Of a stretch of 51,224 nt of DNA, positions 30,319-46,020 are shown piece after piece. The stretch covers positions 1-51,224 of the forward strand of contig JACNLL010000037.1 of the NCBI GenBank assembly GCA_014381545.1. Reading direction: 5' to 3'. This stretch comes from Candidatus Desulfaltia bathyphila. Lineage in GTDB: Bacteria > Desulfobacterota > Desulfobacteria > Desulfobacterales > ETH-SRB1. The notes under the pieces were generated by a model that made no database searches, had not been told where the DNA came from, and saw only the letters and a program-made list of their open reading frames with translations. A program made the position numbers and the translations under genes. Numbering within the stretch: the first letter of the stretch is position 1; each line of letters opens with the position of its first letter.

Positions 30319-32412
30319 TCAATTTTCAATTGCAAACGTCTTTCTCATTTTAAACTCAGCCTGCTTGCCGTCATTCCACTGCTTTACAGGTCGCAAGTAG
30401 CCGACCACCCTGGAATAGATTTCGGTCTCTTGGTTGCAGACAGGGCATATCGCCTGCTCACCATTCAAATACCCATGTGACGAACATACGCTGAAGGTTG
30501 GCGTAATGGTGAAATATGGAAGCTTGAAATTGTTTGATACCTTTTTAATCATGCTCTTAATAGCCATGGTGTCACTTACCAGCTCTCCCAGAAAAATATG
30601 CAGCACAGTGCCTCCCGTATATTTTGCCTGCAGCTCATCCTGGAGCATCAGGGTTTCGAAAATGTCGTCTGTATAATTAACAGGAAGCTGGGTGGAGTTT
30701 GTATAGTATGGGGCCGCCCCTTTTTGATAGTCATCCTCATTAGCGCAAATAATTTCAGGAAATCTCTTTTTATCTGTCTTCGACAGGCGATACGACGTAC
30801 CTTCTGCCGGCGTTGCCTCCAGATTAAACAGCTCGCCTGTCTCCTCCTGCATCTGTGCTATCATGTCACGGATAAAATCCATGACCTTGAGTGAAAACTC
30901 CTGACCCTGTTTAGTGGTAATATCTTCGCCTAAAAAGTTTAAGCATGCTTCATTCATGCCGATAATCCCGATAGTGGAAAAATGGTTCTTCCAGTAAAAA
31001 CCGGTGTTGCTCTTGATTTCTCTTAAATAAAATTTTGTATAAGGATAGAGATTTTTATCTGTAAATTTTTCAAGAATCTTTCTTTTTATAGACAGGCTTT
31101 CCTTTGCAAGAAGTATTATCTTTGTTAAACGCGCAAAGAAGTCCTTTTCGTTTTGAGCTAAATATCCTATACGCGGCAGGTTTATGGTTACCACTCCAAT
31201 CGATCCTGTAAAGGGGTTTGCTCCAAACAGGCCGCCGCCCCTTTTTAAAAGCTCTCTTTTGTCAAGTCGCAAACGGCAGCACATTGACCTGGCGTCTTCG
31301 GGCGACATGTCTGAATTTACAAAGTTGGAAAAATAAGGGATCCCATACTTGCCGGTCATTTTCCAGATCGGTTCAAAGTTAGGATTATCCCAGTCAAAAT
31401 CTGCTGTGATGTTATAAGTCGGAATAGGAAATGTAAAGACCCTCCCCTTTGCATCTCCTTCCATCATTACCTCGGCAAAGGCTCTGTTTAACATATCCAT
31501 TTCCGGCTGGAAGTCTGAGTATGTCTCATCCTTTTCAACTCCGCCTATGATCACGGGATGATCTTTTAGAATAGAAGGCACATGAAGATCCATAGTAATA
31601 TTGGTAAATGGTGTCTGAAATCCTACGCGTGTCGGTATATTAATATTAAAAACAAACTCCTGTAGAGCCTGTTTTATCTCTTTATAGTCCAGGTTGTCAT
31701 ACCGGATAAAAGGGGCTAAGAGGGTGTCAAAGTTTGAAATGGCCTGGGCGCCTGCTGCCTCGCCCTGCAATGTATAGAAAAAGTTTACAATTTGTCCCAG
31801 AGCCGATCTAAGATGTTTCGGGGCGGCGCTTTCCACCTTGCCTTCAACCCCTTTGAATCCCTCCTTTAGAATATCTTCCAGATCCCACCCAACACAATAA
31901 ATCGAAAGTAGACTCAGGTCGTGTATGTGAAGATCGCCATTTTTATGGGCATGCCTGAACTCAGGAGGATAGATGCGGTTAAGCCAGTATTCTTTCGTAA
32001 TATCGGATGATATATAATTGTTAAGCCCCTGGAGAGAATAGCACATGTTGCTGTTTTCCTTGATTTTCCAGTCAAGTTTCTGGATGTAGGTATCAACAAG
32101 ATCAACATTTGCTTTTGCTATAATGTTTCTTATCTGCGCATGCTGTTCCCTGTATAGAATATAGGCCTTGGCGGTTTTATAAAATGGAGAATCGAGCAAC
32201 ACCCTTTCAACAATATCCTGTATCTCTTCCACTTCAGGAACAGGATCAAGGTGGAGTTCATGGGCTAAGGTCAGAACTCGAAGGGTCAGCTTTTTTGCCT
32301 CTTTTTCCTCGAATTCTTCCGTTGCCCTGCCCGCCTTGGCAATCGCGGCTGCAATCTTTGATGAATCGAATTGCACAATCCTTTTGTCCCGCTTTTTTAT
32401 ACCTTTAAACAC
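30319..32412 (-). CDS. nrdD: Anaerobic (class III) ribonucleoside-triphosphate reductase
   Basis: The enzyme makes deoxyribonucleotides without oxygen using a glycyl radical. An ATP-cone domain opens the protein (FKGIKKRDKRIVQFDSSKIA), the large catalytic barrel follows, and the C-terminal zinc site (CSSHGYLNGEQAICPVC) precedes the glycyl-radical loop RVVGYLRP. I start at the GTG at 32412, which has AAAGGA eight bases upstream and gives 697 residues; the open frame runs 30 codons further (to 32502) without family-like sequence. The activase gene nrdG follows within 25 bases. Confidence 0.94.
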   Translation of the reverse strand: MFKGIKKRDKRIVQFDSSKIAAAIAKAGRATEEFEEKEAKKLTLRVLTLAHELHLDPVPEVEEIQDIVERVLLDSPFYKTAKAYILYREQHAQIRNIIAKANVDLVDTYIQKLDWKIKENSNMCYSLQGLNNYISSDITKEYWLNRIYPPEFRHAHKNGDLHIHDLSLLSIYCVGWDLEDILKEGFKGVEGKVESAAPKHLRSALGQIVNFFYTLQGEAAGAQAISNFDTLLAPFIRYDNLDYKEIKQALQEFVFNINIPTRVGFQTPFTNITMDLHVPSILKDHPVIIGGVEKDETYSDFQPEMDMLNRAFAEVMMEGDAKGRVFTFPIPTYNITADFDWDNPNFEPIWKMTGKYGIPYFSNFVNSDMSPEDARSMCCRLRLDKRELLKRGGGLFGANPFTGSIGVVTINLPRIGYLAQNEKDFFARLTKIILLAKESLSIKRKILEKFTDKNLYPYTKFYLREIKSNTGFYWKNHFSTIGIIGMNEACLNFLGEDITTKQGQEFSLKVMDFIRDMIAQMQEETGELFNLEATPAEGTSYRLSKTDKKRFPEIICANEDDYQKGAAPYYTNSTQLPVNYTDDIFETLMLQDELQAKYTGGTVLHIFLGELVSDTMAIKSMIKKVSNNFKLPYFTITPTFSVCSSHGYLNGEQAICPVCNQETEIYSRVVGYLRPVKQWNDGKQAEFKMRKTFAIEN

Positions 32413-32583
32413 TTTTATTTTCCTTTCTGGCAATTTAAGTTCTTTCCAAAATTGATGCAATTCTACAACATGGTGTATGTTTGTCAATGAATAAATCAAC
32501 ATGTTGTGCTTGAATTAGAAAACACTAACGCGAATTGCAAAGAATAACAGGGGGGTAAGGCTATTTTTTTCTGCAGGATTTTT

Positions 32584-33543
32584 TTACTTAGCTGGATGAT
32601 GGCTTTGAGCTTTCATCTTCCTGCTATTAACATGTCCCATATTATGCTTTTTTATCTGAGGTGTTACCCAGATATAATCTGCAAAGGCAAGTTCGGCCTT
32701 GCTTCCAGCGGGCGCTAACAAAAGGGTCCTAAAGGTGGCTCCGGTGCGATCAAAGGCCCGGTCAGGTATTCCGAATTTACGTATAATGTGACCATTTCCG
32801 GATAAAACCACTATCTTAGACCTTTTTTTTAGATAAAGCGCTATTAATTCGGCCATTGTTTCTTCCCACACACACTGGACCATATAGAAATGCTCAAAAT
32901 TTTCTCTTCCCTTTACTTTGTGTTTTTTGAATATATCTTCTACATAGGCCCTATGATCGGCGTTGGTGGTGTCTATCCTTTTGGGGAGGTATTTTTTTTC
33001 ATCGCCTGATAAGCTCTCAATTCCGCCGACAGCTATCTTGGGGGGAATATGGAAGGGGATATTCAAGCCTATAAGCTTTATATGTCTTTCCCTGATAAAA
33101 GCAAGTAAGTCTTTGTATAATTCAAAGTCAAATTTCCAGTTCGCATACCAGTGCGTCCTTTCCAGGAACCCCTTTTCATCCAGCCTGCCGGCAGACCACA
33201 TGTCCAGTATTTTCTGGTATGAATGATCAAATGCCTCCATGCCGATAACAAGTTCAGGATGTGTGTCAATAAGCCTTTTGATAACCCTTAGCTGGATTTT
33301 ATGATGTGCTGAATCTGTGTGTTTTTCACCAATATAAATTACTTTGGCCATGTTCAGGTCGGCAATAAGCTCTTCAAAAGATACAGGCACGCCGGTTTTG
33401 GTGTTGATTATATCTCCCTCTTTAAACGACCTCGACAAATCCTCGATTAAAAGTTTTTTTGGCGCCATTGCGCATCCCCATATAAAATTCATAAAGGCGG
33501 TAAAACAAAAAAGTATAAATACCGTTTTCCTGCTTAACTTCAT
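32584..33543 (-). CDS. ChaN-family lipoprotein
   Basis: The 319-residue protein has a lipoprotein-type signal peptide ending near C24 (FIWGC). The ChaN-like domain follows: VIYIGEKHTDSAHHKIQLRV, GMEAFDHSYQ, LIGLNIPF and VVLSGNGHI. ChaN-like proteins are outer-membrane lipoproteins linked to haem binding in some bacteria; whether this one binds haem is not shown. It stands alone on the minus strand, between nrdD and the accessory region. Confidence 0.85.
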   Translation of the reverse strand: MKLSRKTVFILFCFTAFMNFIWGCAMAPKKLLIEDLSRSFKEGDIINTKTGVPVSFEELIADLNMAKVIYIGEKHTDSAHHKIQLRVIKRLIDTHPELVIGMEAFDHSYQKILDMWSAGRLDEKGFLERTHWYANWKFDFELYKDLLAFIRERHIKLIGLNIPFHIPPKIAVGGIESLSGDEKKYLPKRIDTTNADHRAYVEDIFKKHKVKGRENFEHFYMVQCVWEETMAELIALYLKKRSKIVVLSGNGHIIRKFGIPDRAFDRTGATFRTLLLAPAGSKAELAFADYIWVTPQIKKHNMGHVNSRKMKAQSHHPAK

Positions 33544-33707
33544 TGTATATCGAGACCTTTGAAAAACCCCTTCCTTTGCATCCCCTTTTTATAATTTGAC
33601 GAACTTGTAGAAAATCTGTAATATTGTAGCAGTTCAGCCACAGATTCACACAGATGAACGCAGATAGGTTTAAACACAAAGAAACACGGAACATCAAGAA
33701 TTATATT

Positions 33708-33980
33708 ATGCGCCTTCAGCAAAATCCGCTATTTAGAAAAGAAATCTCTCCGTGGTATGATTCGGATACAAGCTGTTTGATAATGATTGGCTTTTTGCTT
33801 ATCGTATTTTTGTTTAGCATCACCGGTATTTCTGAAGCATATGAAAAACTTGAATATCATAAGCATGTTTGGATCCCAGGCATTCTTGCTATACTGAGTG
33901 GAGTAATAATAATTTCAACGTCAACACGCCTGATAAAAAGATACTACAAACGACGGGCCAAAGAAAGGGACGATTTATGA
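33708..33980 (+). CDS. Small two-helix membrane protein of unknown function
   Basis: From the ATG at 33708 the frame encodes 90 residues with two clear membrane helices (about 26-44 and 56-72) and a basic C-terminal tail (LIKRYYKRRAKERDDL). An upstream ATG at 33654 would add 18 residues, but those come from a CAGATGAACGCAGATAG-type intergenic motif, so the shorter form is preferred. No ribosome site is obvious. It is not recognised. It is directly followed by a hydrogenase remnant, so it may be a remnant itself. Confidence 0.45.
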   Translation: MRLQQNPLFRKEISPWYDSDTSCLIMIGFLLIVFLFSITGISEAYEKLEYHKHVWIPGILAILSGVIIISTSTRLIKRYYKRRAKERDDL

Positions 33981-33995
33981 AAGCCGGCAAGATCT

Positions 33996-34164
33996 GAGGC
34001 TGATTGCGTGATCCCCACAAGTCAGAATCATGCCAATATTTATCATGATCTGCAAAGCCTGGTTGAAAAATTGATCGTACAGGGAAAGGGAAGAAGAGAT
34101 CGGGCGTCTCGCTCAGATGCTTGTCAGGGCTTATGACCCCTGTATTTCCTGCTCAGTGCATTAA
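33996..34164 (+). pseudogene. Remnant: C-terminus of a [NiFe]-hydrogenase large subunit
   Basis: Two adjacent frames encode the end of an MvhA/HoxH-type hydrogenase large subunit. The first (33996-34088) reads EADCVIPTSQNHANIYHDLQ and then SLVEKLIVQGK. The second (34090-34164) reads EEEIGRLAQMLVRAYDPCISC followed by SVH and a stop. The second carries the nickel-binding D-P-C-x2-C motif and the terminal histidine at which such proteins are normally processed. A single-base shift near 34089 joins the two. Everything upstream of residue E is missing and a stop codon precedes it, so this is a deleted, frameshifted tail and not a functional gene. Confidence 0.8.
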
Positions 34165-34184
34165 CGTTTACTGAAAATAAACAG

Positions 34185-34661
34185 ATGAAGACAACCAATT
34201 TAATTGTATGGAAAAGCGCTACTGTTCTTATAGCGCTTATGGTTTTTTCGGGCTGCGCATCAAATTATGGATGTCTTCAGCAAAGCCGGGATGTCACAAA
34301 GCTTTTTGAACATTTTAAGATACTTGATAATTACAGGTATTATTACAGCGGAACGGAAACAGAGCCAAATGCCATAATTGGGATTAAGAACGAGTATATA
34401 CTTGTAACAAAACTGTGGAAAGATGTGGATTTTACCGGCAAACAGCTAAAAAACTGGATCGACCGGATGCACCAGACTCATGATTTTCCTGTCAGCCCTT
34501 ATGGATCTTTAATCCTGGATCAGGAAGGCAAACAGGTGGGAATCTGGTATTCTGTATGGGACAGAACCACCGTAAAGATTGAAAAGGATAACCATATAGT
34601 TATTCATACGCCAACATTTCCCATTAAAAAGATCATGTTTCTTAAACAAAATAACGAATAA
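34185..34661 (+). CDS. Predicted lipoprotein, about 158 residues
   Basis: A signal peptide with lipobox FSGC (cysteine at 24) is followed by about 130 soluble residues. The mature part has DNYRYYYSGTETEPNAIIGI and GKQVGIWYSVWDRTTVKI, giving an impression of a beta-rich domain. I do not recognise the family. It stands on the plus strand between the hydrogenase remnant and the cassette-like region. No ribosome site is obvious in front of the ATG. Confidence 0.65.
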   Translation: MKTTNLIVWKSATVLIALMVFSGCASNYGCLQQSRDVTKLFEHFKILDNYRYYYSGTETEPNAIIGIKNEYILVTKLWKDVDFTGKQLKNWIDRMHQTHDFPVSPYGSLILDQEGKQVGIWYSVWDRTTVKIEKDNHIVIHTPTFPIKKIMFLKQNNE

Positions 34662-34763
34662 CTTCGACATAGCGCCCACTAAGGGCTCGGAAAAAAATAA
34701 GTTGGTCATTTTGGCGCATATTGGATATATGGCAAAATTGAGAAAAACAGCTCGCTTTTCTGA

Positions 34764-34881
34764 TCTCAATATTCAGCGTTGGCGGGCTACAACAAATTGT
34801 AAACCATACAAAAGGTGCGAATGTCATGCGCGATTTCGTTCCATGATAATGCGCGTTTTCGCCCGCTAATCATTGTTGGGC
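34764..34881 (+). other. Imperfect palindrome ending in GTTGGGC, attC-like
   Basis: TTGGCGGGC (34779-34787) pairs with GCCCGCTAA (34861-34869). The outer right end is GTTGGGC (34875-34881), which fits the integron R' consensus GTTRRRY. A matching left core (AAC) is not exact; TCTCAAT at about 34764 is the best candidate. A direct repeat of ATGCGCG lies inside. A gene starts 46 bases downstream, as after a cassette boundary. It could equally be an unrelated palindrome. Confidence 0.3.
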
Positions 34882-34926
34882 TTACTTATCATAGCAATAA
34901 TTAGGTCATTACGCACAAGGGTAAAT

Positions 34927-35412
34927 ATGGGAGCAACAATCATCGTAGATGCTTTTGGGGGTGATGGGGGGAAAGGTAAGTTTTGTGCATTTTTGTCAAA
35001 GAGATTAGATGCGAAGCTGTCAGTTCGGGCAGGGGCTGGTACAAATGCCGGGCATAGTTTTTTCATTGACAAAGAGTTTATAAAAACACGTATGCTACCT
35101 CTTGGTTGCGTGAACCCCAATACGAAAGCCCTTATAAGCTCTGGTGTTGCAATTAATCCAACCATATTTTTAGAGGAAATTAACAATTATGATTTAGCTG
35201 ATCGAGCATTTGTTGATAGAAATTGTCCGGTAATTGAAAGCAAACACATATCATACGAAAAAAAAGATCCTACAATGATAAAAATCGATTCAACCAAAAA
35301 TGGGTCGGGGCGTGCACGAGCTGATTATGTCATGCGCCGAGCTAAACGCGCACAAGATATTAAAGATTTAGAAGGTTTTTTTACCTTCCAATTGAATCTA
35401 ATTTTTTGGTGA
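34927..35412 (+). pseudogene. Truncated PurA-like (adenylosuccinate synthetase-like) gene
   Basis: The ATG at 34927 follows AAGGG and opens 161 codons. The product shows successive PurA motifs: the P-loop GGDGGKGK (11-18, where PurA has GDEGKGK), RAGAGTNAGHSFF (34-46), LISSGVAINP (69-78) and STKNGSGRARADYVMRRAKR (122-141), the counterpart of the IMP-binding loop. Full-length PurA is about 430 residues and viral PurZ relatives about 340, so more than half is missing, including the aspartate- and guanine-binding parts. The frame ends in EGFFTFQLNLIFW, and no continuation was found in other frames. It lies just upstream of a restriction-modification pair. Confidence 0.7.
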
Positions 35413-35511
35413 TTGCTTCAAGCCCATAATTATGCTAATTTTCATTAAGATAAAGGTTCAATGTCAGTTAACCAATTAAATTTTCATTGCAATTGAATTT
35501 ATGGTGTTTCT

Positions 35512-36384
35512 ATGGAATCGATCAAGACAGAAATACTTACAGGCGACTGCTTAGAGCTTTTGACTGATTTTCCGGATAACTTTTTTAATCTAATTGTAAC
35601 TTCTCCCCCATATGCTGACAGAAGAAACAAAACATATGGAGGAATAAAGCCGGATGAGTATGTTGAGTGGTTTCTGCCACGTTCTGCTGAGTTTCTTAGA
35701 GTCCTGAAACCAGATGGCACATTTATACTGAATATTAAAGAAAAAGCGATTAACGGGGAACGGCACACATATGTTATTGAATTGATATTAGAAATGAAGC
35801 GGCAAGGCTGGCTATGGACCGAAGAATTTGTATGGCATAAAAAAAATTGTTACCCTGGAAAATGGCCTAATCGTTTTAGAGATGCTTGGGAAAGGTGCCT
35901 TCAATTTAATAAGTCTAAAAAGTTCAAAATGTATCAAGAAGCAGTAATGGTTCCAATGGGTGATTGGGCTAAAGGTAGATTAAAAAATTTAAGTGACACA
36001 GATAAAACCCGTGATAATTCCAAGGTAGGAAGTGGTTTTGGAAAAAACATTTCCAATTGGCTAAAACGGGAAAAGGCATACCCCACGAATGTTTTGCATT
36101 TTGCCACAGAATGCTATAACCGAAATCACAGCGCTGTGTTTCCAAAAACATTACCGGAATGGTTTATGAAGTTGTTTACTCAAGAGAATGATTGGGTTCT
36201 TGACCCTTTTCTTGGTTCTGGAACAACGTGCGAAGTAGCCCAAGAACTAAAACGAAATTCGGTTGGTATTGAAATTTTACCTGATTATTATGAGTTAGCA
36301 AGAAAACGCACCTCAAATTATCAGTATAGATTGTGCGAGGAACAAGAAGAATATGAAGTTAATAACTCAGAAAGACATAGTTGA
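35512..36384 (+). CDS. Type II DNA methyltransferase (beta class, N4-cytosine or N6-adenine)
   Basis: The 290-residue enzyme has the beta-class order of motifs: catalytic motif IV TSPPY at 30-34 near the N-terminus and the SAM-binding motif I DPFLGSGTT at 231-239 near the C-terminus. S-P-P-Y is most often found in N4-cytosine methylases, but N6-adenine cannot be excluded. The target recognition region lies between (about 110-200). The gene overlaps the next one by 32 bases and is its protective partner. The codon usage is AT-rich with lysine and asparagine. Confidence 0.9.
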   Translation: MESIKTEILTGDCLELLTDFPDNFFNLIVTSPPYADRRNKTYGGIKPDEYVEWFLPRSAEFLRVLKPDGTFILNIKEKAINGERHTYVIELILEMKRQGWLWTEEFVWHKKNCYPGKWPNRFRDAWERCLQFNKSKKFKMYQEAVMVPMGDWAKGRLKNLSDTDKTRDNSKVGSGFGKNISNWLKREKAYPTNVLHFATECYNRNHSAVFPKTLPEWFMKLFTQENDWVLDPFLGSGTTCEVAQELKRNSVGIEILPDYYELARKRTSNYQYRLCEEQEEYEVNNSERHS

Positions 36385-37102
36385 ATATGTTGAGAAAAAT
36401 ATCCCTAATTTTCATCAGAATCGTTTAGACAAACTGAAGAAATTGAGACTCAGAGATGTCCTTAAACGCAAAAACCCATATCTATTCAAGGTCAAAAACA
36501 TCACCACTGCCAGCGATTTTATTAAAACAATTCTTGATGCATTCCTTTCATCTCAAGAGGAAAGTCTTTTCGGAGGATTTTTAGAAGAACTTGCGATTTT
36601 TATTTGTAGCAATGTTTACAACGGCCGCAAGTCTTCCACTGAAGGCATTGACTTAGAGTTTGAAAAAGACAACGCTAAGTATATCGTTTCGATAAAATCC
36701 GGTCCAAATTGGGGGAATAGCAGCCAAATCAAAAAAATGAAGGACAACTTCAAGAAAGCAAAACGAATTTTGGGAACAAATACTTCGACTGGATTTCATG
36801 TTATTGCGGTAAACGGCTGTTGTTATGGAAAAGATAATACACCGAATAAAGGTGATTACCTAAAGTTATGCGGACAGAGATTCTGGGAGTTTATATCGGG
36901 CAATGAAAATCTCTATACTGAAATCGTTGAACCCTTAGGGCATAAGGCCAAAGAAAAAAACGATCTTTTTTTACGAGAATATGCCAAAGTAATAAACAGG
37001 TTTTCACTTGAATTTATGAAAATGTTTTGTGACCCCTCCGGTGAAATCCTCTGGGAAGAAGTCATTAAGTTCAACTCAGGAAAAAATATTGTGAAGGCAT
37101 GA
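36353..37102 (+). CDS. Type II restriction endonuclease (PmeII-like)
   Basis: The 249-residue protein starts inside the methyltransferase gene and is read in another frame. It has a PD-(D/E)xK-type core: E79 in FLEELAIF, D100 in STEGIDLEFEK, and S113-x-K115 in YIVSIKSGPNWGNSSQ. The last motif resembles that of PmeII-type restriction enzymes as I recall them. The first 60 residues are helical and basic. Adjacent to a cognate methyltransferase, it is best read as the cutting half of a type II system. The family name is less sure than the function. Confidence 0.72.
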   Translation: MKLITQKDIVEYVEKNIPNFHQNRLDKLKKLRLRDVLKRKNPYLFKVKNITTASDFIKTILDAFLSSQEESLFGGFLEELAIFICSNVYNGRKSSTEGIDLEFEKDNAKYIVSIKSGPNWGNSSQIKKMKDNFKKAKRILGTNTSTGFHVIAVNGCCYGKDNTPNKGDYLKLCGQRFWEFISGNENLYTEIVEPLGHKAKEKNDLFLREYAKVINRFSLEFMKMFCDPSGEILWEEVIKFNSGKNIVKA

Positions 37103-37223
37103 ACAACGCCATTCACTCAGATGGGCAGGGTCGTGCGGGTTGAAGTTTTTATCAAGTTTTGTATTTAGTCGCCTTTTACAAAGGCCCGTTTCCCCTACCC
37201 ACTGGTGATGGCGGACGTTGAGC
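37098..37223 (+). other. Imperfect palindrome ending in GTTGAGC, attC-like
   Basis: The left arm (about 37108-37139, GCCATTCACTCAGATGGGC then AGGGTCGTGCGGG) pairs imperfectly with the right arm (about 37183-37212, GCCCGTTTCCCCTACCC then ACTGGTGATGGC). The right end GTTGAGC (37217-37223) fits GTTRRRY, and an AAC core (37102-37104, in CATGAAC) overlaps the stop codon of the endonuclease gene. Size (126 bases) and position after a stop codon fit an attC site. The left box deviates from RYYYAAC, so this is a suggestion only. Confidence 0.35.
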
Positions 37224-37334
37224 CTGTCGAAAAACTCTAAACCAGCGGTTTTAAGATTTGTAAGTACTTAATTTTATTACATGCAAAATGGACAAATTAG
37301 TCACTTTTGTACTTTTCCGACAGCCTCGTTAGGT
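37217..37334. repeat. Inverted repeat upstream of the cyclase-like gene
   Basis: GAGCCTGTCGAAAA (from about 37221) pairs with TTTTCCGACAGCCTC (ending about 37327) with single mismatches. GTTAGGT follows at 37328-37334, a second match to GTTRRRY. The AT-rich interior (37240-37310) contains no gene. It may be a leader or a degenerate recombination site. Confidence 0.35.
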
Positions 37335-37370
37335 CGCTGAGTAACTCAATAGGAGAGAAAGCACTCCAGT

Positions 37371-38571
37371 ATGGCTCGCTCGCGCAAAACCAAAGAAGAA
37401 ATGCGTAGCATAGTATTTCTTGACGCCGTAAATTTTACTCAAGAATTAAAAAAGCACGGTAGAGCACTCATTATACCCAAAATCAAGCAACTAAAAGAGT
37501 TCACTGAGTTCTTTTTTGTTCACAAGTTGAAAGGAGAATTCATTGGGTAATTGGGTGATGGTTTCCTTGCTCTTTGCCCTCCGAGACCAGTAGAAGTAAT
37601 CAACGAGGCGATTGCCTGTCAATCATTCATTGTGGCATACAATCACGGTAAGGAAACACCAGCTATTCTTAATACCCGAATTGCGATTCATTATGGTTTA
37701 ATTGCACCACCAGAGGGGGGGGAATTATATTGATACAAATCTAAATCTCACAGCACGCCTTCAGGGTGTTACGCCACCGAATGGTATCTGTATATCATCT
37801 GTCCTTTATGACATTGTGGCCGATGTCCTTAGAGATTATAGATTCGAGGAGCTTAAGTCGGACTTCAAGGGACTTGGACAGAACAAGTATTACATTATTT
37901 CGAATCCCTCTCTAAAAACTCTGGAGCCGACACTTCGTGAGGCTCGTCTTAGTTTTTATTTTTCAACCATTGATGCACTCCGTGAAGTCGAAAATTGGGA
38001 AGCAGTTCGCGATACATGTGAACAGGCATTGGTTGACTTTCATAGCCACCCAGAATTCACCTCACAGTTAGCTTACGCATTATTGATTCTTGGCGACAAA
38101 CTAGGTGCTATTCGTACTTATGAACAGTGCATCCAGATGGGTTACGATGTCCCTGATTCCTTGTATTTCATTGGAGTTGCGCAACGAGAGATTGGTAACG
38201 AACCACGCTCAGTAGAAATATTTGAAGAAGCAATCAAAAAAGAGCCGAAGCTTTTTCATGCTATGGTCGAGCTTGGGGAGATCTATTTAAATCGCCGAAA
38301 TTATGTTGAGGCAAATCATTGGGCAAAGAAAGCTACGAAACTCGCACCTAGATTTTATATTCCTCATGCCATACAAGTTGTGATTGCGTTGGGTTTGAAA
38401 AAGGATAAGTCTCTCAACACATTGATCAAAAAGATTCCTCACGAAGTACGCATGCGTGGTGACTTTCGTCTCCAAATCCAGGATTATTTAAAATCTCTGG
38501 GTGAGACGGATTACAACAAGAAACTGAGTCGGGCTTTCAAGGCTGCGGACAAATACGTAGCGAGCAAATAG
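37371..38571 (+). pseudogene. Class III nucleotidyl cyclase-TPR protein, broken by stop and G8 frameshift
   Basis: The ATG at 37371 opens a class III cyclase domain: IVFLDAVNFT holds the first metal-binding aspartate. An in-frame TAA at 37548-37550 interrupts it just before LGDGFLAL, which holds the second. The frame then continues to a G8 tract (37715-37722), after which the rest lies in the +1 frame: NYIDTNLNLTARLQG (with the D, N and R of the active site) and at least three TPR-like helical pairs (about 230-350). Removing one G and changing TAA to a sense codon would restore 399 residues. All catalytic residues remain, so decay is recent, or the G tract is a phase switch or an assembly error. 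Confidence 0.75.
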
Positions 38572-38642
38572 GTAGCATGGAATTTCCGTGGGAGTTGCCA
38601 TCTAACAATCGGCTCGAGAAGGGCGCTCTTTGAATTCACTAC

Positions 38643-39008
38643 ATGTTGAAAAGACTATCACTGAGGTGTTCCTATGAGTACAAAAAAAATCTTGATCCAA
38701 TAAAACCGGGTGAAATTCTTCGTGAGGATTTTTTAGAGCCCTTAGACATTAGCATTAACCAGCTTTCTCGGGATCTTTCAGTTCCTCCCAATAGGGTAAG
38801 TGAAATTGTGAATGGAAAAAGATCCATTACTACCGACACAGCCTTGAGGCTACAGCGGTATTTTGGGATTGAAGCTCAGTTTTGGCTAAATCTGCAAACT
38901 GAATATAATCTGCGAATGATGAAGCGTAAAATTTGGGCGGATATTGAACGACGGGTTATCCCTATTAAAGATACGGGCAATAGTTTACAGCATAGCGCCG
39001 GAGCATAA
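38643..39008 (+). CDS. higA: HigA-type antitoxin (XRE family) with out-of-frame natural start
   Basis: The product has the HigA pattern: NLDPIKPGEILREDFLEP, an XRE helix-turn-helix (SINQLSRDLSVPPNRVSEI, NGKRSITTDTA) and LRLQRYFGIEAQFWLNLQTEY. From the ATG at 38643 the frame gives 121 residues with 15 unfamiliar ones in front. The usual start would be the ATG at 38673, which has GAGG upstream, but an A8 tract puts it out of frame; nine As would give MSTKKNLDPIKPG. No HigB toxin gene lies next to it. It is either an orphan antitoxin, a frameshifted remnant, or a gene read by slippage on the A tract. Confidence 0.7.
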   Translation: MLKRLSLRCSYEYKKNLDPIKPGEILREDFLEPLDISINQLSRDLSVPPNRVSEIVNGKRSITTDTALRLQRYFGIEAQFWLNLQTEYNLRMMKRKIWADIERRVIPIKDTGNSLQHSAGA

Positions 39009-39077
39009 CAACACAATTATTTTTACTCAAAGCATAAACCGAACAGATCTCCGAGTTACTGAGATTAGGAGGAAGCA

Positions 39078-39542
39078 ATGATCATTGTCAGAGATATCAT
39101 GAACACCGACCTGATTACCGTCACCCCGGATATGGATATTTCCAGGGCAGCCTCAATCCTTTTTGATAACCGGATTAACGGCGCACCGGTAGTGGACGAT
39201 AGCGGCGGTTTGGTGGGCATCCTATGCCAAAGCGATCTTATTACCCAGCAGAAAAAGCTGCCGATTCCCACTATTTTTACTTTCCTCGACGGCCTCATCC
39301 GGCTGACATCTGTGAAACAGATCGAAAAGCAGGTCAGTAAAATCGCCGCCCTTACGGTTTCGGAAGCCATGACGCCTAAGCCGGTCACAGTCCAGCCGGA
39401 CACCGAGCTCGAAACCGTTGCGGCCCTGATGGTGGACAGCAAATTTCATACCCTGCCCGTGGTCGAAGACTCACGCCTTGTGGGAATCATCGGCAAGGAG
39501 GATGTTCTGCGCACCCTTATATCCACCACTGAAAGCCACTGA
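39078..39542 (+). CDS. CBS-pair protein
   Basis: The 154-residue protein consists of two CBS motifs, about 1-55 (VRDIMNTDLITVTPDMDIS, GGLVGILCQSDLI) and 90-148 (VSEAMTPKPVTVQPDTELE, SRLVGIIGKEDVLR), joined by a helical linker. Such stand-alone pairs bind adenine nucleotides and act as energy sensors on unknown partners. A strong AGGAGG site precedes the ATG. Its base composition is visibly richer in GC than neighbouring genes, which may point to a different origin. Confidence 0.9.
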   Translation: MIIVRDIMNTDLITVTPDMDISRAASILFDNRINGAPVVDDSGGLVGILCQSDLITQQKKLPIPTIFTFLDGLIRLTSVKQIEKQVSKIAALTVSEAMTPKPVTVQPDTELETVAALMVDSKFHTLPVVEDSRLVGIIGKEDVLRTLISTTESH

Positions 39543-44250: not shown

Positions 44251-46020
44251 CTATTCATGGTAGATTTTATCATAAAGAAGGCTGCCGTATGTATCCTGCA
44301 CTAATTTCATTACAGCAGTGGCCGAGGTTTGTTTAAGCACATCCTTCATAAAAAGTTTGACATTCTCTACGTTAAGTTCTCTTACCATGCTCTTTACAGC
44401 GGGTATTGATTGAGGGTTCATGCTCAATTCATCCAAACCCAAACCTAAAAGTATAGGCATATAAATAGGGTCGTTGGCCATCTCACCGCACATAAAGACC
44501 TTTATACCTTTTTCACGCGCCACGTCTGCAACATGTTTAATCACACGTATAATAGCGGGATGAAGCGGATTATAAAGATAGGCAACATTGCTGTTCCCCC
44601 TGTCTATCGCCAGTGAATACTGAATAAGATCGTTTGTCCCTATGCTGAAAAAATCAACATTTTCTGCCATCACATCCGCCATGGTTACAGCCGAAGGAAC
44701 TTCTATCATTATCCCGAACTCAATATCTCTGTTAAAGACCGCTCCTTCTTTATCCAGGGAATCAGCAACTTCGTTTAAAATCCTTTTTGTTTCACAGACC
44801 TCATCATAGCTTGATATCATGGGGATCAGGATTCTGACATTGCCGTATGCGGCAACCCTTAATATGGCTCTGATCTGAGTCTTGAAAACCTCAGGATTTT
44901 GCAGGCAATACCTGATTGCGCGAAGTCCAAGAGCCGGATTGGTCTCATCACACTCGGAAACATGGGTTATCGCTTTATCAGCGTTTATATCAAGAGTGCG
45001 GATAGTCACCGGCTTTGGCGCTATTACTTCAACTACATCCATGTATTTATCAAACAGTTCATCTTCACTGGGAAAAACAGAACTGCTTAAATATTGAAAT
45101 TCGGTTCTGTACAGACCGATGCCGTCACCACCATGGTCGATAACGGAAACCACCTCCTCGGGCAGCTCAATATTGCCCATAACAGGCAGCTGAAATCCAT
45201 CAGTCGTTTCAGCCACAAGATGGCTTCTCCTGGCGATGGCAGCTCTATATTCTTCATATTTGATTTTACTTTCTTCATACTTGACAAGTGTCTCTTCTGT
45301 TGGATGAACAAGCACTGTACCGGTAGTGCCGTCAACTATAATCAGATCGTCATTTCGGATTATTCCTGTTGCGTTATCAAGCCCTAAAACAGCCGGTATT
45401 TCAAGAGTCCGTGCAATTATACCGGTATGTGATGCTTTTCCTCCGCGATTGGTAACAAAGCCTTTAATTTTTTCCAATTGTATCTGACTGGTCTCGGCAG
45501 GTGAAAGATCATGGGCGATAAGTATGACCCGCTTACAAATATCAGCGATATTGAGCGCTTCCGCACCGACCAGATTTTTCATTACACGGTCGGACACATG
45601 CACAATGTCTGCAGCCCTTTCCTTTAAATAAGGATCTGACATATTTTGAAACATCGATTTCAAGCTTGACACCACTTTCTTCAGAGCCCATTCCGCATTT
45701 ATCCCTTCATCTTCAATGGTTTCAATTGTCTTGCCATAGAGCATCTTGTCCTTTAGCATCACAACATGGGTCTCAAGAATATAACTCTGCTGGCACAACT
45801 CTTCATTGGAATTTTTAATAATTACTCTAAGTTCATCCTTTGCTTTCTTTACGGCAGCCTTGAAACGTTTTGTCTCATGCCGCAGGTTCTCCTTTCCGAT
45901 GAAATATTTCCTGACAACATCGACCCCTTCCTTATCGACCAAATAAGCCTTTCCTATGCATATGCCTGGAGAAGCCCCTATCCCATTTAAAATTATTTCA
46001 ATTGCATTTGTATCCGACAT
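44251..46020 (-). CDS. ptsI: Phosphoenolpyruvate-protein phosphotransferase (PTS enzyme I)
   Basis: The 589-residue enzyme takes phosphate from phosphoenolpyruvate to HPr. The phospho-histidine is H198 in GGKASHTGIIAR. The C-terminal barrel shows DGIGLYRTEFQYLSS, GTNDLIQYSLAIDRGN and the catalytic cysteine in VFMCGEMAND. It lies six bases after the HPr gene. No sugar permease is present, so the pair may act as a regulatory phosphorelay instead of sugar uptake, as in many Desulfobacterota. Confidence 0.96.
   Translation of the reverse strand: MSDTNAIEIILNGIGASPGICIGKAYLVDKEGVDVVRKYFIGKENLRHETKRFKAAVKKAKDELRVIIKNSNEELCQQSYILETHVVMLKDKMLYGKTIETIEDEGINAEWALKKVVSSLKSMFQNMSDPYLKERAADIVHVSDRVMKNLVGAEALNIADICKRVILIAHDLSPAETSQIQLEKIKGFVTNRGGKASHTGIIARTLEIPAVLGLDNATGIIRNDDLIIVDGTTGTVLVHPTEETLVKYEESKIKYEEYRAAIARRSHLVAETTDGFQLPVMGNIELPEEVVSVIDHGGDGIGLYRTEFQYLSSSVFPSEDELFDKYMDVVEVIAPKPVTIRTLDINADKAITHVSECDETNPALGLRAIRYCLQNPEVFKTQIRAILRVAAYGNVRILIPMISSYDEVCETKRILNEVADSLDKEGAVFNRDIEFGIMIEVPSAVTMADVMAENVDFFSIGTNDLIQYSLAIDRGNSNVAYLYNPLHPAIIRVIKHVADVAREKGIKVFMCGEMANDPIYMPILLGLGLDELSMNPQSIPAVKSMVRELNVENVKLFMKDVLKQTSATAVMKLVQDTYGSLLYDKIYHE

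Follow-up and report, generated by a model that had tools for sequence, protein, structure and literature searches.

Genes and repeats at the locus

We analysed 51,224 nucleotides of the Candidatus Desulfaltia bathyphila genome (contig JACNLL010000037.1 of assembly GCA_014381545.1; the whole stretch is called the window below). Within it, a gene for a divergent class III-like cyclase with a tetratricopeptide repeat (TPR) tail lies just downstream from a type II restriction-modification (RM) system and upstream from the remnant of a higBA module (Table 1). Two repeats, A and B, separate the RM genes from the cyclase gene, the reading frame of which is broken at two places.

Table 1. Features of the locus, with positions in the window.
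Feature	Position	Strand	Evidence or remark
Insertion relative to relatives, ~4.4 kb	34669..39066	.	5' of conserved CBS-domain gene (39078-39542)
PurA-like (adenylosuccinate synthetase) N-terminal fragment, truncated	34873..35412	+	PF00709 positions 2-154 of 416 only
Type II RM DNA methyltransferase, intact	35512..36384	+	PF01555, 1.7e-45
EcoO109I-type restriction endonuclease, intact	36353..37102	+	PF14511, 3.7e-90
attC-type integron recombination site (repeat A, 126 bp)	37098..37223	+	Abuts endonuclease stop codon; AAC...GTT ends, long palindromic arms
Repeat B, ~114-bp palindromic element lacking an ORF	37217..37330	+	Between attC and next gene
Putative ribosome-binding site of cyclase gene, AGGAGAG	37351..37357	+	13 nt 5' of ATG 37371 (sequence)
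Cyclase gene, whole	37371-38571	+	Otherwise open frame, ~399 codons, two lesions
Cyclase gene, piece 1 (codons 1-59, with metal Asp D18)	37371..37547	+	
In-frame TAA at cyclase codon 60	37548..37550	+	Sequence
Cyclase gene, piece 2 (with metal Asp D63)	37551..37714	+	
G8 tract, one-base frame slip	37715..37722	+	Sequence
Cyclase gene, piece 3 (N125/R129 region and TPR repeats, ends TAG)	37723..38571	+	TPR families
Candidate left half of truncated attC, ATCTAACAATCGGCTCGAG...	38600..38632	+	Fits RYYYAAC
HigBA remnant (HigB tail only; HigA with usual start out of frame)	38642..39008	+	TIGR02607

The region that contains the cyclase gene varies among close relatives. In one genome of the same genus (G005:C50) the equivalents of positions 34668 and 39067 are joined with ~105 bp between them, giving an empty site; a second same-genus genome (G001:C52) also lacks the stretch 34669-39066, and G003 holds a different insert there. 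These comparisons count for acquisition of the stretch that carries the cyclase gene, and by them the site 5' of the CBS-domain gene is a place of repeated insertion. The small module found 5' of the CBS-domain gene in G003 (G003:C290, L135) resembles, by eye, a DUF433/DUF5615 toxin-antitoxin pair. Two other repeats have many copies in genomes of the family: one of ~90 bp at 33617-33709, and one of ~170 bp at 34709-34877, before the PurA-like fragment, which ends near GTTGGGC and is possibly another recombination site.

Apart from the RM genes, much of the insertion is decayed. The RM unit common to the window, G006 and G002 starts at 35378. Compared with G006, the methyltransferase is 97% identical with a dN/dS of 0.09 and the endonuclease 97.6% identical with a dN/dS of 0.06; by these values purifying selection acts on the RM genes. 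Both of them are intact. In most relatives HigB is complete and the run just past the HigA start (38674-38700; L120-L123, L134) has nine A residues, where the window has eight. The run is A8 in the window and G001 and A9 in four others. The missing A puts the usual HigA start out of frame, and its absence from G001 as well counts against a pure assembly artefact at HigA. Together, the beheaded HigB, the displaced HigA start, the truncated PurA-like gene and the low dN/dS of the RM genes count for decay around a conserved RM system.

The cyclase gene is broken at two places

The first-pass annotation had reported that a TAA and a G8 tract interrupt the cyclase frame, and direct reading of the sequence confirmed both. 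The frame 3' of the TAA runs on to a tract of exactly eight G, past which the coding frame is +1 and open until the TAG that ends at 38571. Outside the two lesions ~396 codons are open, compared with ~24 stops expected in composition-matched shuffles (minimum of 9, n=2000), and a codon-position GC bias is seen in all three pieces. The small number of stops relative to the shuffles and the GC bias indicate that 37371-38571 was once a real gene. By computation, a random substitution in the sequence creates a stop in ~4.7% of cases, and one chance stop corresponds, as a rough estimate, to ~20 substitutions or ~2% divergence, which is consistent with recent death of the gene. From its own start, the broken gene would yield a peptide of at most 59 residues, and therefore no active cyclase is expected.

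Sequencing or assembly errors could also produce such a frame, in which case the organism would have an intact gene and a working cyclase-TPR protein. The genome is a draft of 107 contigs, the conserved metal and transition-state residues are all retained, one of the two lesions falls in a homopolymer, a kind of sequence prone to errors, and two lesions in the region (G8 of the cyclase gene and A8 of higA) are homopolymer differences. However, under this explanation two errors would have arisen separately within ~170 nt, and one would be a stop of the substitution type. Other G8 runs occur in open frames, and conserved genes of the window (for example, at 30319-32502 and 44251-46020) form long ORFs without interruption. 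We consider it unlikely that the organism carries an intact gene.

The G tract had also suggested phase variation, in which slippage would switch the cyclase gene on and off. The gene resembles poly-G contingency loci in having a mononucleotide G tract in coding sequence at a one-base frame change. It differs from them in having a second, independent stop 5' of the tract and a tract of a length that is normal for the genome. The TAA is 165 nt upstream from the tract and stops the protein whatever the tract length, such that a change in tract length alone never restores the protein, and a restart 3' of the TAA would drop the metal-binding D18. Runs of this kind are also ordinary: 0.90 G8 runs are expected by chance in the window, 49/100 shuffles contain at least one, and 14 runs of at least eight G are present in the genome. 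At least two of these 14 are in unbroken ORFs, one of 432 aa (L059) and one of 427 aa (L052), which, by eye, we take to be tyrosyl-tRNA synthetase and LpxK, respectively. Phase variation is thus very improbable, and the alternative in the first-pass annotation, a freshly inactivated gene, is better supported by two lesions in an otherwise open frame. Runs of 13 G and 14 G, longer and more unusual than that of the cyclase gene, are found outside long ORFs elsewhere in the same genome (G000:C18:1669-1681, L035, and G000:C28:24488-24501, L042).

It is extremely unlikely that the 3' frame is used by itself as a TPR protein. This frame of 289 aa, from TTG 37702 to 38571, has no internal stop and includes every TPR repeat, but its start would be a TTG before the tract and inside the cyclase domain, leaving half a cyclase fold as the N terminus.

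The encoded protein is a probable divergent cyclase with a non-canonical purine pocket

Residues 11-176 of the conceptually repaired protein align to positions 8-181 of the 183-position PF00211 profile with 16.3 bits (E 0.0075), under the cut-off of 21.9, and TPR family profiles match several repeats in the middle and C-terminal part. On this profile match, we regard the class III assignment as real but weak. In an alignment with plasmid-borne and other cyclases, the metal-binding D18 and D63 are in homologous columns, as are the transition-state residues N125 and R129, which are invariant. The two purine-selecting columns hold G59 (the Lys column) and N118 (the N-7 column), and the canonical adenylate-type K/D pair is absent. 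In the numbering of mammalian adenylate cyclase, these columns correspond to K938, D1018, N1025 and R1029. The first-pass claim that all catalytic residues survive therefore stands for the metal and transition-state residues and fails for the purine-selecting pair; the Asp that had been assigned to the catalytic triad, D121 in YIDTNLNLTARL, is off the homologous position, the purine column being seven residues before the Asn, at N118.

The lack of the Lys/Asp pair bears on subtype, as class III membership does not require it. Two rhizobial relatives (L026 and L030) carry the identical G/N pair, indicating natural variation and not decay. Among cyclase-TPR relatives (L026, L030, L070 and L072 versus L025 and L029) the two purine-selecting columns seem to covary, as K/D, G/N or D/R, which suggests distinct substrate classes. 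The closest described counterparts that we compared are class III cyclases with a C-terminal TPR region, such as adenylate/guanylate cyclase domain proteins from Microvirga, Ensifer and Rhizobium plasmids, which match PF00211 and have the same order of the full-length catalytic domain, the metal Asp pair, the Asn and Arg, and the TPR tail. In contrast to these, the window protein is only 18-34% identical, has 399 aa and no middle region (most of the others have ~550-600 aa), has a G59/N118 pocket and not a Lys/Asp one, and has a broken frame.

We did not find an ortholog of the cyclase in 144 relatives or 395 genomes of the phylum, and scanning ~85,000 species genomes twice did not reveal one either; the best matches were ~29-34% identical, and no relative exceeded ~35% identity in the collections searched. 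The scans used exact 8-residue patterns and then motifs chosen through an alignment with artificial query variants, and homologues of 60-75% identity that lack the motifs may escape them. At the DNA level, 37334-38641 matches only itself within the family, and a search for plasmid DNA relatives found none. A phage origin was rejected: single-protein queries matched neither phages nor viral contigs, and broader patterns led only to generic cyclases of 25-39% identity.

An integron recombination site separates the RM and cyclase genes

Several properties identify repeat A as an attC site, a conclusion that we hold with good confidence from sequence and predicted structure. The repeat (AACAACGCCATTCAC...GTGATGGCGGACGTT) has AAC/GTT core boxes, complementary arms and an unpaired base, and its stem is recovered by RNAalifold and in a covariance model. 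Copies are dispersed across the family, and often a same-strand ORF ends just 5' of the copy and another begins soon 3' of it. We built a covariance model (R1) from 14 copies of repeat A and found that it detects sites next to IntI genes that had been left out of its building (E 1e-17 to 1e-9). These are in G003 (L171, E 1e-17), in a cassette array of G007:C1 (L184, 5e-17), in G007:C29 (L181/L168, 6e-13), and at another G007 locus (L178, 1e-9); a weaker attC match lies 3' of the RM homologue of G007 (L125, E 0.006). IntI is present in 13/17 genomes of the family, and the genome that contains the window has two IntI genes (482 and 421 bits). A strict core-matching scan for attC found no site because the outer boxes vary, and relaxed scoring found repeat A. 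Repeat A is the single confident attC of 33400-39300 and, at default filters, of the whole window.

Repeat B is also a family-wide element, with copies 90-94% identical, and the order attC, repeat B, gene occurs twice more in G009:C59 (L156). Copies include L156 1988-2101 and 4276-4389 and L157-L161, with GTT at either end. We rejected repeat B as a simple attC, given that both its ends read GTT and that it is positioned 3' of attC sites. It may be a cassette lacking an ORF or a miniature element that targets attC.

The arrangement at the locus is like that of integron cassettes and of attC clusters lacking an integrase (CALIN) (PMC9024848) in that an attC abuts the stop codon of the preceding gene, the next gene has the same direction, the genome has IntI, and unrelated genes adjoin. 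It differs in that the window has one confident attC, IntI is absent from the contig, and the attC expected for the cyclase gene is missing or truncated. The RM genes look like a cassette. The cyclase unit is without a complete 3' attC of its own, with at best half of one present (Table 1): 3' of that candidate half there is no inverted complement (score 13, versus a null mean of 12.8). This half site and the single confident attC count against reading the cyclase gene as a cassette. We make no claim that HigBA is a cassette; IntI is on the same contig as the HigA genes of G007:C29 and G006:C130, but no attC was found beside those genes.

Published work provides context for these observations. 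Where attC sites cluster with no integrase, they are considered to be degraded integrons; a single attC can be genuine as well, but default settings do not report such cases (PMC9024848). Cassettes of chromosomal integrons are mostly silent or weakly expressed, and they are known to include defence genes, type II restriction systems among them (PMC12409362). This literature supports the view that the RM and cyclase genes came to be adjacent by side-by-side capture.

The position of the cyclase gene next to the RM genes had also been taken in the first-pass annotation as a hint of a role in defence, which the evidence weakens and which is unsupported for the cyclase.

Pycsar, which combines the pyrimidine cyclase PycC with an effector, uses a class III-like cyclase. 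A Pycsar-like cyclic-nucleotide component working with the RM module would fit the adjoining intact RM genes, the non-canonical purine pocket, and the frequency of defence genes in integron cassettes (PMC12409362), and the window shares with Pycsar a class III-like cyclase in a defence neighbourhood. But no PADLOC model matches the cyclase at E<=1, there is no adjoining effector gene (the neighbours being RM and HigA), the protein has a TPR tail, and the gene is broken. Furthermore, genomes of relatives with RM homologues have no orthologous cyclase anywhere. The attC between the RM and cyclase genes gives a non-functional reason for their adjacency. We regard a defence partnership of this kind as highly improbable.

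Discussion

Based on the combined evidence, we think it likely that the locus holds a recently dead, divergent class III cyclase-TPR gene that was acquired horizontally, was probably once a cassette, and came to lie beside the RM genes by gene capture and not through a shared function. A foreign cyclase gene would have arrived, most likely through integron gene capture, and the attC directly 5' of it, between the RM and cyclase genes, would be the trace of that capture; two IntI genes are present in the genome. Apparently maintained by nothing at its present position, the gene would then have picked up a premature stop codon by mutation and, in a run of G, a frame slip of one base. We infer that the cyclase gene itself moved as a cassette, that both lesions are genuine and have become fixed, and that the gene is not expressed.

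A more speculative and improbable extension is that integrons carry a cyclase-TPR family, as yet undescribed, with a G/N pocket, to which the gene belongs; the product of intact members would be a non-standard cyclic nucleotide, possibly with a role in phage defence, and the window copy would be a casualty of capture.

A broken gene next to an RM system can be mistaken for a partner in defence or for a phase-variable switch, and integron capture is a simpler cause of the adjacency. The analysis also brings to notice a divergent cyclase whose substrate pocket departs from the canonical one. For the family as a whole, repeat A provides an attC signature by which cassettes can be located across this lineage of environmental genomes.
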